The position numbers and the translations under genes were made by a program. Positions 7,336-44,086 of a DNA stretch of 64,000 bases are shown one piece after another (position 1 is the first letter of the stretch; every line of letters begins with the position of its first letter). This DNA comes from Isoptericola jiangsuensis (GTDB lineage: Bacteria > Actinomycetota > Actinomycetes > Actinomycetales > Cellulomonadaceae): NCBI RefSeq assembly GCF_002563715.1, contig NZ_PDJJ01000001.1:1116001-1180000 (forward strand). The letters run 5' to 3'. A model generated the notes under the pieces. The model worked only from the letters and a program-made list of their open reading frames with translations, had not been told where the DNA came from and made no database searches.

Positions 7336-7395
7336 CGCCGTGACCGTCCGGCGCCGGACCGTCCGGGCGACGGTCCGGCGCCATCGGCTAGGATC

Positions 7396-7475
7396 GCGGT
7401 GTCGCGACTGGCGTACAGGTGGATCACCACCGGGGAGCGACGCGCTGTGTGGCGAGGGGTCGGTCGCCTGGGCCC
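7396..7475 (+). ncRNA. ZTP (pfl) riboswitch aptamer
   Basis: The region matches the conserved pfl-motif skeleton: GACTGGCG, then a GGTGGA...CACC hairpin, then ACCGGGGAGCG, a variable linker, and the 3' element CGCCTGGGC (7465-7473). This RNA senses ZMP/ZTP, which accumulate when 10-formyl-tetrahydrofolate is scarce, and switches on folate and purine one-carbon genes. Here it precedes glyA and folD, classic members of the regulon. A hairpin at 7480-7491 and an 8-bp stem with one G-U pair at 7503-7522, between aptamer and start codon, are candidates for the expression platform. Confidence 0.92.
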
Positions 7476-7562
7476 TGTCGCTCGACCGAGCAATGCCCGA
7501 ACGCCGTTCCGCCAGGAGCGGCACCACGTTCGTCCACCGCCGACACAGCATGGAGACGCCCG

Positions 7563-8846
7563 ATGAGCACTCCCGACCCCACGTTCGACGCGCCGCTGGC
7601 CGAGGTCGACCCCGAGATCGCCGCCGTCCTCGACGGCGAGCTGGCCCGCCAGCGCGACACGCTCGAGATGATCGCGTCCGAGAACTTCGTGCCCCGTGCC
7701 GTCCTGCAGGCCCAGGGTTCCGTCCTGACCAACAAGTACGCCGAGGGCTACCCGGGCCGCCGCTACTACGGCGGCTGCGAGCAGGTCGACGTCGCGGAGA
7801 ACCTCGCGATCGCCCGTGCCCAGGAGCTGTTCGGCGCCGAGTACGCGAACGTCCAGCCGCACTCCGGCGCGCAGGCCAACGCGGCCGTGCTGCACGCCCT
7901 CATCAACGCGGGCGACAAGATCCTCGGCCTGGAGCTGGCCCACGGCGGTCACCTCACGCACGGCATGAAGATCAACTTCTCCGGCAAGCTGTACGACGTC
8001 GGCGCGTACGGCGTGGACCCGACCTCGCACCGCATCGAGATGGACGAGGTCCGCAAGAAGGCCCTCGAGCACCGTCCTGACGTCATCATCGCCGGCTGGT
8101 CGGCGTACCCCCGTCACCTCGACTTCGCGGCGTTCCGCGAGGTCGCGGACGAGGTCGGCGCCAAGCTGTGGGTCGACATGGCGCACTTCGCGGGCCTGGT
8201 GGCCGCGGGCCTGCACCCGTCCCCGGTGCCGCACGCCGACGTCGTGTCCTCCACGGTGCACAAGACCATCGGCGGTCCCCGCTCCGGCTTCATCCTGGCC
8301 AAGGACGAGTACGCCAAGAAGCTGAACTCGGCGGTGTTCCCGGGTCAGCAGGGCGGCCCGCTCATGCACGTCATCGCGGGCAAGGCGGTCGCGTTCAAGA
8401 TCGCCGGCAGCGAGGCGTTCAAGGAGCGCCAGGAGCGCACCCTGCGCGGCGCGCAGATCATCGCCGAGCGTCTCGGCCACGCCGACGTCGCCGACACCGG
8501 CGTGTCCGTCCTCACGGGCGGCACCGACGTGCACCTCGTCCTCGTCGACCTGCGGAACTCCGCGATGGACGGCCAGCAGGCGGAGGACCTCCTGCACTCG
8601 GTCGGCATCACCGTGAACCGCAACGCCGTGCCGTTCGACCCGCGCCCGCCGCGCGTCACCTCCGGCCTGCGCATCGGCACGCCGGCGCTCGCCACCCGCG
8701 GGTTCGGCGACGCCGAGTTCACCGAGGTCGCGGACATCATCGCGACCGCGCTGCGCGACGGCGCGTCGGCCGACGCCGACGCCCTGCGCGCCCGCGTCGC
8801 GAAGCTCACCGCGGACTTCCCGCTCTACCCGGGCCTCGCCCAGTAA
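7563..8846 (+). CDS. glyA: Serine hydroxymethyltransferase
   Basis: PLP enzyme interconverting serine plus tetrahydrofolate with glycine plus 5,10-methylene-THF in the cytosol. It has 427 residues, typical of bacterial GlyA. The PLP-binding lysine is K234 in [13 protein letters not shown]; other hallmarks are SENF near the N-terminus, [14 protein letters not shown] and the PHSGAQAN loop. The ATG at 7563 has a GGAG element a few bases upstream; the longer in-frame extension runs through the riboswitch and is rejected. Expression is expected to respond to ZTP through the RNA at 7396-7475. Confidence 0.97.
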
Positions 8847-34991: not shown

Positions 34992-35018
34992 CCCCGGGTA
35001 GCCGGACGAGGCCCGGGG
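34992..35018 (+). terminator. Weak terminator after uvrD2
   Basis: A 7-bp CCCCGGG/CCCGGGG stem with a 13-nt loop just after the uvrD2 stop codon and before the whiB7 promoter. Confidence 0.35.
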
Positions 35019-35053
35019 AGGGCCGTCGCGGGACCGGAGAAAAAAGTTCGGGA

Positions 35054-35091
35054 AAAAAGATGTGGCGACCCCGGCGGCGAGGTCTATGCTC
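35054..35091 (+). promoter_or_regulatory. Probable WhiB7-autoregulated promoter
   Basis: An A6 tract (35054-35059) ends 3 bp before a -35-like GTGGCG (35063-35068), followed after 17 bp by a TATGCT -10 (35086-35091). A second A6 tract is at about 35041. An AT-rich block 3 bp upstream of the -35 is the recognised feature of WhiB7-dependent promoters, read by the AT-hook. It stands out in sequence that is otherwise about 75% GC. The transcript would start near 35098, giving a leader of about 400 nt. Confidence 0.7.
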
Positions 35092-35162
35092 GTCCTGACC
35101 GAGTTCGTGGCGGTCCGTGCCGAGAGGTGCGGGCCCGAGACAGTGAGGAGGTGGGTGAAGAG

Positions 35163-35327
35163 ATGGAGATCATGAAGCCGTTCATCGGCGCGATCGGCAA
35201 CGTCACGGGGGAGAACTCTGCCCTGCGTGGACCTGTGCCGACCGTGCGTCTGCGCGCGCGTCACGCCACCGGCGAGCTCCTCGCCGATCTCGCACCCAGC
35301 TCCGCCACCTGGAGTCAACCGGTCTGA
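35163..35327 (+). CDS. Upstream leader ORF of whiB7 (54 codons)
   Basis: Small ORF encoding a 54-residue peptide beginning MEIMKPFIGAIGN and ending SSATWSQPV. A strong RBS (GTGAGGAGGT) lies upstream of its ATG; a second ATG is three codons later. Its stop codon lies in the loop of a 5-bp stem (CCGGT/ACCGG, 35319-35334), a few bases before the terminator arm at 35339. In mycobacteria and Streptomyces a uORF in this position senses ribosome slowing by antibiotics and controls termination before whiB7. The peptide has no recognisable domain. Confidence 0.8.
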   Translation: MEIMKPFIGAIGNVTGENSALRGPVPTVRLRARHATGELLADLAPSSATWSQPV

Positions 35328-35338
35328 GCACCGGTCCA

Positions 35339-35379
35339 GGCCGCGGAGTCCAACTGGGACCCGCGGCCTTCGTCTTTCC
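35339..35379 (+). terminator. Intrinsic attenuator in the whiB7 leader
   Basis: A stem of 8 bp (GGCCGCGG/CCGCGGCC), one bulged A and 4 further bp with a 5-nt loop, followed by the T-rich TTCGTCTTT. It starts 12 nt after the uORF stop codon and 157 nt before whiB7. It is one of few hairpins here with a clear T-tract, as expected for a true Rho-independent attenuator. Confidence 0.8.
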
Positions 35380-35441
35380 CCACCGGGAAGTCGGCCCTCA
35401 CCGGCCGGACGAACCGGAACCCCGATCACGGGGATCCACCG

Positions 35442-35482
35442 CAGGTCCTGAACATCGACGTTCACACCACACCCAGGACCTG
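35442..35482 (+). promoter_or_regulatory. Stem next to the whiB7 ribosome binding site
   Basis: CAGGTCCTG (35442-35450) pairs perfectly with CAGGACCTG (35474-35482), which ends 3 nt before the GGAGG of whiB7. A smaller CCCCG/CGGGG hairpin is at 35420-35433. These could influence translation or form part of an antiterminator; the role is inferred. Confidence 0.4.
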
Positions 35483-35495
35483 ACGGAGGAACATC

Positions 35496-35867
35496 GTGCG
35501 TCTCGCACAGCTGTTGGACGAGCGGCTGGTCGACGCGGCCCCCGCCGGTGGTGTCCGCCACTGGACCCCTCACCAGCCCGTGACCCAGGACCCGAACGAG
35601 GCCGCAGAGCTGGACCGCCAGTTCGCCGCTCTGCTGCCCTGCCGCACCAACGACCCCGAGCTCTGGTTCGCCGAGCACACCACCCAGGTGGAGCAGGCCA
35701 AGGCCCTGTGCCGCTCCTGCCCGCTCCAGGCGGGCTGCCTGGCCGGTGCCATCGAGCGAGCCGAGCCGTGGGGCGTCTGGGGCGGCGAGGTCTTCGTGGA
35801 CGGCGCCGTCGTCGCCCGCAAGCGTGGCCGGGGTCGGCCGCGCAAGTCGGAGCAGGCGGCCGCCTGA
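35496..35867 (+). CDS. whiB7: WhiB7 transcription factor
   Basis: Fe-S cluster-binding regulator of intrinsic antibiotic resistance that acts with the primary sigma factor. It has 123 residues. The four cluster ligands are C49, C72, C75 and C81 (LPCRT, LCRSC, GC). The G(V/I)WGG turn is at 93-97, and a C-terminal AT-hook KRGRGRPRKS (109-118) distinguishes WhiB7 from other Wbl proteins. GTG 35496 follows ACGGAGGAACATC. It is preceded by an attenuated leader and an AT-rich promoter and, as in mycobacteria, is next to uvrD2. Confidence 0.95.
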   Translation: MRLAQLLDERLVDAAPAGGVRHWTPHQPVTQDPNEAAELDRQFAALLPCRTNDPELWFAEHTTQVEQAKALCRSCPLQAGCLAGAIERAEPWGVWGGEVFVDGAVVARKRGRGRPRKSEQAAA

Positions 35868-43720: not shown

Positions 43721-43797
43721 CGCGGGGTGGAGCAGCTCGGTAGCTCGCTGGGCTCATAACCCAGAGGTCGCAGGTTCAAATCCTGCCCCCGCTACCA
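43721..43797 (+). tRNA. Initiator tRNA-fMet (CAU), copy 1
   Basis: 77-nt cloverleaf with anticodon CAT in CTCATAA and encoded CCA. Initiator features are the unpaired C1 at the acceptor end (C1 opposite T72) and three consecutive G-C pairs closing the anticodon loop (GGG/CCC). The T-loop is GGTTCAAATCC. Confidence 0.97.

Positions 43798-44009: not shown

Positions 44010-44086
<77 letters not shown>

Follow-up and report, generated by a model that had tools for sequence, protein, structure and literature searches.

WhiB7 is a main switch of intrinsic drug resistance in actinobacteria, and in Streptomyces and Mycobacterium the wblC/whiB7 gene is reportedly controlled by an attenuator built on an upstream open reading frame (uORF), as described by Burian and Thompson in 2018 and by Lee, Lee and Roe in 2022. 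According to the available text of PMC10727445, actinobacterial whiB7 typically has a uORF, a terminator and an antiterminator that shares overlapping bases of both, and the available portions of PMC11550727, PMC9618640 and PMC13393426 outline the same model, with Lee et al. 2022 among their citations. A uORF reporting stalling by several classes of ribosome-targeting drugs is also described, in the accessible part of PMC12121999, for topAI of Escherichia coli (toiL), although gene and organism are unrelated to those considered here; the same text states that drug stalling inside the whiB7 uORF has not yet been tested. In trp/ilv-type attenuators, such as ilvB1 of M. tuberculosis, ribosome position likewise picks the terminator or the antiterminator, but these leaders carry regulatory codons for the amino acids of the operon (PMC13236596, in the part available), and none is evident in the uORF described below. 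A search of the available literature combining 'Isoptericola' and 'whiB7' found no paper. The kind of switch is already known for actinobacterial whiB7, and the Isoptericola leader adds a new case whose function is predicted.

The leader lies in Isoptericola jiangsuensis, within a stretch of 64,000 nucleotides of contig NZ_PDJJ01000001.1 that was analyzed as a whole (hereafter the window). A preliminary description had recognized a complete antibiotic-sensing attenuation leader, with a promoter, a leader of about 400 nt, a 54-codon uORF with a strong ribosome-binding site (RBS), a stem at its stop codon, a T-tailed terminator and a stem adjoining the whiB7 RBS. Reading of the window at 35041-35495 confirmed all of these elements, yet the antiterminator, which completeness requires, had been missed; it is present, with 35299-35313 pairing with 35335-35349. 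Like the wblC/whiB7 attenuators of Streptomyces and Mycobacterium, as far as the sources available to us cover them, the locus has the order promoter, uORF, terminator and whiB7, and an antiterminator built from uORF and terminator bases. It differs from them in a peptide that is unrelated and not alanine-rich, in a helix A of GACTCCG/CGGAGTC-type bases accompanied by a second helix (CCTGGA/TCCAGG), and in a clade-specific hairpin proximal to the Shine-Dalgarno (SD) sequence. What was observed in favor of an attenuator is sequence, predicted folds, conservation and reading-frame evidence, and we put at about 0.9 the probability that the leader is a whiB7 ribosome-mediated transcription attenuator. 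Its features are as follows.

35053..35066, forward strand: AT-rich WhiB7-box-like element AAAAAAGA and a poor -35 (sequence, alignment)
35085..35090, forward strand: -10 element TATGCT (GTCTATGCTC in 8 of 8 aligned leaders)
35146..35153, forward strand: SD sequence of the uORF, AGGAGGTG (sequence; 80 of 104 family uORFs match the SD at 6 bases or more)
35163..35327, forward strand: uORF of 54 codons, MEIMKPFIGAIGNVTGENSALRGPVPTVRLRARHATGELLADLAPSSATWSQPV (ATG at 35163, TGA at 35325-35327; comparison)
35299..35305, forward strand: 5' arm of antiterminator helix A, GCTCCGC, inside uORF codons (fold, alignment)
35308..35313, forward strand: 5' arm of antiterminator helix B, CCTGGA, inside uORF codons (fold, alignment)
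35319..35334, forward strand: stop-codon hairpin of the uORF, CCGGT/ACCGG, arms 35319-35323 and 35330-35334 (fold)
35335..35349, forward strand: 3' arms of the antiterminator, TCCAGG and GCGGAGT, overlapping the terminator 5' arm (fold, comparison)
35338..35377, forward strand: intrinsic terminator, 9 + 4 pairs with one bulged A, tail TTCGTCTTT (fold, comparison)
35393..35406, forward strand: post-terminator hairpin H1, GGCC/GGCC (one pair A-U in 5, G-C in 5 and unpaired in 1 of 11 close leaders)
35420..35433, forward strand: post-terminator hairpin H2, CCCCG/CGGGG (two pairs changed on both sides among 11 leaders)
35442..35482, forward strand: SD-proximal hairpin H3, CAGGTCCTG/CAGGACCTG, with ACGTTCA in the loop (arms 35442-35450 and 35474-35482)
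35485..35489, forward strand: SD sequence of whiB7, GGAGG (invariant in the 11 rows of alignment A2)
35496..35867, forward strand: whiB7, GTG start, 123 aa (Pfam WhiB, 9.7e-16)

At the upstream end, AAAAAAGA occupies 35053-35060 and is followed directly 3' by the poor -35-like TGTGGC. The promoter block AAAAAGATGTGGC was exact in 6 of 8 aligned Isoptericola/Krasilnikoviella leaders, with one mismatch in a seventh; a genome search found a single exact copy and 1 further near match, with no TATGCT in the 120 bases inspected. In S. coelicolor, according to the accessible part of PMC7157823, the WblC consensus is GAAAWY, 3 bp ahead of the -35, and WblC promoters have a TANNNT -10 with starts 7-8 bp downstream. 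The AT-rich box of the window fits the GAAAWY motif and its spacing only approximately, the box and the TANNNT -10 being conserved; transcription would be expected to start near 35097, and the leader is about 400 nt long. A generic promoter/terminator scan had no match at the leader, which its limits (loops of 3-8, no bulge, near-consensus hexamers) would explain, and Rfam gave none there at gathering level over the window or at E up to 1 over 35000-35520.

The gene predicted to be controlled is, judging by similarity, a whiB7 orthologue. By reading, the C terminus of the protein contains GVWGG and the AT-hook-like GRGRP; the gene lies 3' of a UvrD-type helicase gene with HRDC and is among the four WhiB matches of the 4.04-Mb genome. 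NCBIfam assigned no family to the WhiB protein. The closest WhiB7 proteins are from Isoptericola and Krasilnikoviella (88% identity to Isoptericola sp. AK164), and the relatives found by WhiB7 sequence share the same leader terminator. As a separate observation, ten listed genomes of f5, a family of the same order, had no WhiB7-like match at E up to 1e-20, and the gene may be missing in that family. A second WhiB7-like gene with an AT-hook occurs in several genomes of genera g7 and g15 (and in G079); at these second-gene loci (L289-L300), the best T-tailed upstream hairpin was of the GGCC attenuator type in 0 of 12.

The comparison set comprised 253 non-duplicate leaders: the window, 80 named loci, 89 family loci and 89 class-level loci (259 in all), less 6 duplicates, which were removed before the class-level loci were added. 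Family loci came from 90 of the 101 family genomes, the ninetieth being the window's own genome, and class-level loci from 89 of the 166 other genomes of the class that gave a match at E up to 1e-20. Removal of identical segments left 104 distinct ones from 119 in the family and 215 from 233 leaders.

The terminator reads AGGCCGCGG-A-GTCC/GGAC-CCGCGGCCT followed by the tail, with its first paired base 11 nt 3' of the uORF stop and a predicted energy of -26.8 kcal/mol (z -5.0; 0 of 200 shuffles as good). By script, 233 of the 253 whiB7 leaders, among them all 89 class-level ones, have a homologous terminator with a T-tail, and the mycobacterial and Streptomyces-like leaders fetched share this GGCC-type terminator. 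Of these 233, 217 passed a strict motif test, 15 were variants and 1 (L044) was mis-picked, with the right hairpin present; L044 entered the duplex, cross-pair and uORF-length counts given below with its hairpin wrongly placed. The outer 8 pairs of the terminator were formed in every cell (100%) of the 104 distinct family segments, and the terminator passed the letter-shuffle control in a 60-row alignment, A3 (0/500). The arms alone are not special, because GGCCRCGG..CCGYGGCC sites numbered 10 in the genome and 22 for the reversed control; a T-rich tail was present only at the whiB7 site among the 10.

In 20 of the 253 leaders the script found no such terminator. Among these, the motif filter of the script missed strong T-tailed hairpins in L079, L171 and L172, and the usual sequence, T-run included, is present in L077. 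The Georgenia leaders L041 and L043, together with L042, kept the uORF and had no T-tailed hairpin beside it. More widely, no convincing T-tailed terminator was seen beside the uORF region in L041, L042, L043, L139, L143, L146, L149 and L155, which belong to the Georgenia type and another genus of the family, and L157 had a weak hairpin only. An SD-preceded uORF was still found by the script in L041, L042, L043 and L139, and L043 contains, by reading, a GC-rich hairpin without a T-tail. A switch of mechanism in the Georgenia-type and related leaders is possible.

Folded alone, 35294-35351 forms one long hairpin, in which GCTCCGC (35299-35305) pairs with GCGGAGT (35343-35349) and CCTGGA (35308-35313) with TCCAGG (35335-35340), enclosing the stop hairpin. 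The predicted energy of the antiterminator segment (helices A, B and C) is -29.6 kcal/mol (z -3.8; 1 of 200 shuffles as good), against -26.8 kcal/mol for the terminator, which needs the same bases within 35338-35351. As modeled, terminator and antiterminator exclude each other at similar energies, which is what an attenuator needs. Across the 104 distinct family segments, 92% of the cells of helix A (8 columns) were paired, compared with 28-51% in slid versions, and 63% of those of helix B, compared with 14-51%. Class-wide, cross pairs between the uORF end and the terminator 5' arm averaged 13.7 versus 8.3 in shuffles; at least 10 were found in 197 of the 215 distinct leaders, and in 159 of 215 at most 3 of 60 shuffles folded as stably (0 of 60 in the window). 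Furthermore, in L039, L132 and L137 one position is changed in all three arms, that of the antiterminator and both of the terminator, and both alternative pairings are kept.

Other measures of the antiterminator gave less. In a bare duplex test, the window antiterminator had a z of -1.2, with 12 of 100 shuffles as good, and over 233 leaders the mean z was -1.54, with at most 5 of 100 shuffles as good in 86; duplex energies alone are a weak test. The family-wide consensus fold of the antiterminator reached only -2.9. In alignment A3, some rows of which are cut short at the left, the antiterminator was 80.5% paired versus 26-48% when slid, and it failed the letter-shuffle control both for the percentage paired (25/500) and for covariation (119/500). 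Since slid versions were beaten and letter shuffles were not, its apparent support within A3 is conservation, not covariation. The stop hairpin has 6 bp when folded alone (z -2.2; 9 of 200 shuffles as good), and a GGTC..GACC pattern surrounds the stop in many A3 rows; in the family alignment, 42% of its cells were paired versus 29-47% when slid, which gives it no family-wide support.

A 54-codon open frame is by itself weak evidence in GC-rich DNA, and the frame of the uORF is open from 34839 already; it is conservation across leaders that makes the uORF credible. An SD-preceded uORF crossing the pairing bases and ending 8-26 nt ahead of the terminator core was found in all 104 distinct family leaders, a count to be read with a shuffle control because the script considered no frames other than those through helix A that had an SD match of 4 or more. 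In this control, such a uORF within 320 nt was present in 103 of the 104 real leaders versus 15.1% of 2080 shuffled ones; when an SD match of 6 or more was required, it was present in 78 of 104 versus 1.1%. The family uORFs found by the script ranged from 29 to 97 aa (median 56). These data bear on the idea that a GC-rich open frame and an ordinary terminator merely stand side by side, uncoupled. Chance of this kind would agree with the generic scans that found neither promoter nor terminator, with the long upstream extension of the frame and with the modest duplex z of the window, but it is barely credible given that all 104 family leaders keep the order and spacing, judged with the shuffle control, and given the conserved mutually exclusive pairing and the three-way change in three leaders. 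The presence in this lineage of the whiB7/wblC switch of mycobacteria and Streptomyces, as proposed earlier, finds good support in anatomy and comparison, its activity being predicted.

The peptide itself is another matter. The peptide body is under weak constraint, with non-synonymous/synonymous ratios of 0.63, 0.38, 0.69 and 0.84 in four groups, and peptides of the different groups compared look unrelated to one another. The divergence became clear when none of 39 relatives proved to have an 'MKPF'-like motif. Many leaders share an (A)PDSAPW-like motif at the C terminus of the peptide, which lies on bases of helices A and B, its PDSA part coinciding with helix A. Five of the 104 family leaders (L029, L030, L039, L132 and L137) retain the GACTCC bases in a different reading frame, so that their peptide there is unrelated. 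The uORF might encode a specific arrest peptide of the ErmCL type, with drug-specific stalling and the peptide sequence as the sensor, and the recurrent C-terminal motif would be expected of such a peptide; we regard this as very unlikely, as the motif sits on the helix A/B bases, the same bases appear in another frame in 5 of 104 leaders, and the body is weakly constrained and divergent where an arrest peptide would be conserved. Instead, the pattern argues that selection acts on RNA pairing rather than on the peptide. With a divergent peptide and persistent pairing bases, which 5 of the 104 leaders carry in another frame, ribosome position rather than the peptide is likely to be the signal of the attenuator.

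Composition and length were compared across groups whose labels, Streptomyces-like (f21) and Mycobacteriaceae-type (f8), are our own assignment. Of 17 named Mycobacterium leaders fetched, 14 were used and a uORF was found in 13; these uORFs encode 45-54 aa with 35% alanine. In the window, 7 of 54 residues are alanine (13%), close to the family mean of 14%, and the next commonest residues stand at 9%. The leader could in principle sense one amino acid, in the way that alanine starvation acts via whiB7 in mycobacteria, for which the 35% alanine of the named Mycobacterium uORFs and the need for WhiB7 in alanine starvation (PMC10727445, in the text available) would speak; with 13% alanine in the window uORF, against 35% there, such sensing is extremely unlikely in this leader. 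The comparison suggests that an alanine-rich uORF is a mycobacterial trait rather than a general one. The peptide had been described in advance as different from the mycobacterial one, which its composition and unrelated appearance bear out, and also as longer, for which there is no support: its 54 aa compare with the 45-54 aa of the 13 Mycobacterium uORFs and with 54-68 aa in 5 of 6 f8 leaders, and nine f21 leaders have longer uORFs, of 105-123 aa.

The attenuator is proposed to work as follows, its start site, termination, read-through, drug response and autoregulation all being predicted steps. RNA polymerase would start near 35097, and the leader would be translated from 35163. A ribosome at the stop codon (35325-35327) would cover the stop hairpin and helix B, the terminator 5' arm would then be free for its 3' arm, and transcription would end near 35377. 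If a ribosome stalled early, either drug-bound or without charged tRNA, 35299-35313 would pair with 35335-35349, and this antiterminator would occupy the terminator 5' arm, so that polymerase would read through into whiB7, whose product would in turn be expected to activate the whiB7 promoter. In the absence of a ribosome, the antiterminator would form first and should win. With a ribosome footprint of 26 nt, as used in PMC13236596 (in the part available), a ribosome at the stop codon would cover approximately 35313-35339, blocking helix B and the stop hairpin, and stalls in about the first 41 of the 54 codons would leave the antiterminator free, so that the switch should report ribosome position, that is, general translation trouble, and not a special peptide. 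On this comparison, evolution protects the mutually exclusive RNA pairing of the whiB7 leader and lets the peptide drift, which predicts a drug-general sensor of ribosome position. This bears on whether drugs really stall ribosomes inside the whiB7 uORF, a point raised in the accessible text of PMC12121999, and offers soil bacteria for the test.

The least explained part of the leader is the chain of post-terminator hairpins that ends in a clade-specific stem near the whiB7 RBS. The RNA of 35378-35495 has a predicted fold of -52 kcal/mol (z -4.0; 0 of 200 shuffles as good). H1 and H2 show compensatory changes among the 11 close leaders, and the whole hairpin set with the terminator was 98.2% paired in these leaders, with a covariation score reached by 0 of 500 shuffles; the numbers of covarying pairs (91/500) and of pair types (499/500) were unremarkable against the same shuffles, and H1-H3 had been chosen on the very alignment on which they were counted. 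H3, which ends 2 nt ahead of GGAGG, had a z of -2.4 on its own (6 of 200 shuffles as good), and its bases are nearly invariant among the 11 closest leaders, so there is no covariation there. Within the genome, copies of the post-terminator stretch elsewhere amounted to short weak matches only, and the H3 stem pattern was not enriched (19 forward sites versus 29 in the reversed control). A second uORF in this last stem (frame CTG...TGA, from 35448 on) was considered and dropped, as by reading it has no usual start codon and no SD.

Beyond the closest leaders, a set of 53, made up of four genus groups together with L021 and L129, had a stem of at least 6 bp at the H3 place in 49 cases, compared with 9-22% in shuffles, the groups having been assigned by us from named relatives and similarity. 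In the other family leaders it was found in 6 of 44, at background level (null 19%). For this count 7 of the 104 leaders were left out, the script having found no start. Three leaders of one group have a different, inner stem, CTGAAAG/CTTTCAG, at the same place. The ACGTTCA motif occurs in 36 of 97 leaders, all within the four groups, and twice as a loop motif in Promicromonospora-type leaders. Translational gating or protection from Rho by H3 are guesses. It is doubtful, if conceivable, that Promicromonospora, Isoptericola, Cellulosimicrobium, Oerskovia and their relatives have a two-level control of whiB7, in which the ancient attenuator is joined by a newer post-terminator element (H1-H3) that gates translation of the read-through mRNA, its last stem-loop, in many cases with ACGUUCA in the loop, lying 2-6 nt ahead of the RBS.

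A stronger version, in which the main control comes after read-through, with H1-H3 regulating whiB7 translation or shielding the RNA from Rho and the terminator acting as a partial block, is quite unlikely. It would account for the compensatory changes in H1 and H2, for a stretch that folds better than all 200 shuffles, and for the recurrence of H3, 2 nt before the SD, in a defined clade. However, 44 other family leaders keep the attenuator with the H3-place stem at background level, and the H3 bases hardly vary among the 11 closest leaders and show no covariation.

Elsewhere in the window, a ZMP/ZTP riboswitch lies at 7394-7480 (Rfam RF01750, 59.4 bits), ahead of a gene that starts near 7563 and, by reading, resembles one for serine hydroxymethyltransferase, and two tRNA-Met(CAT) genes lie at 43721-43797 and 44010-44086, approximately 210 bases apart.
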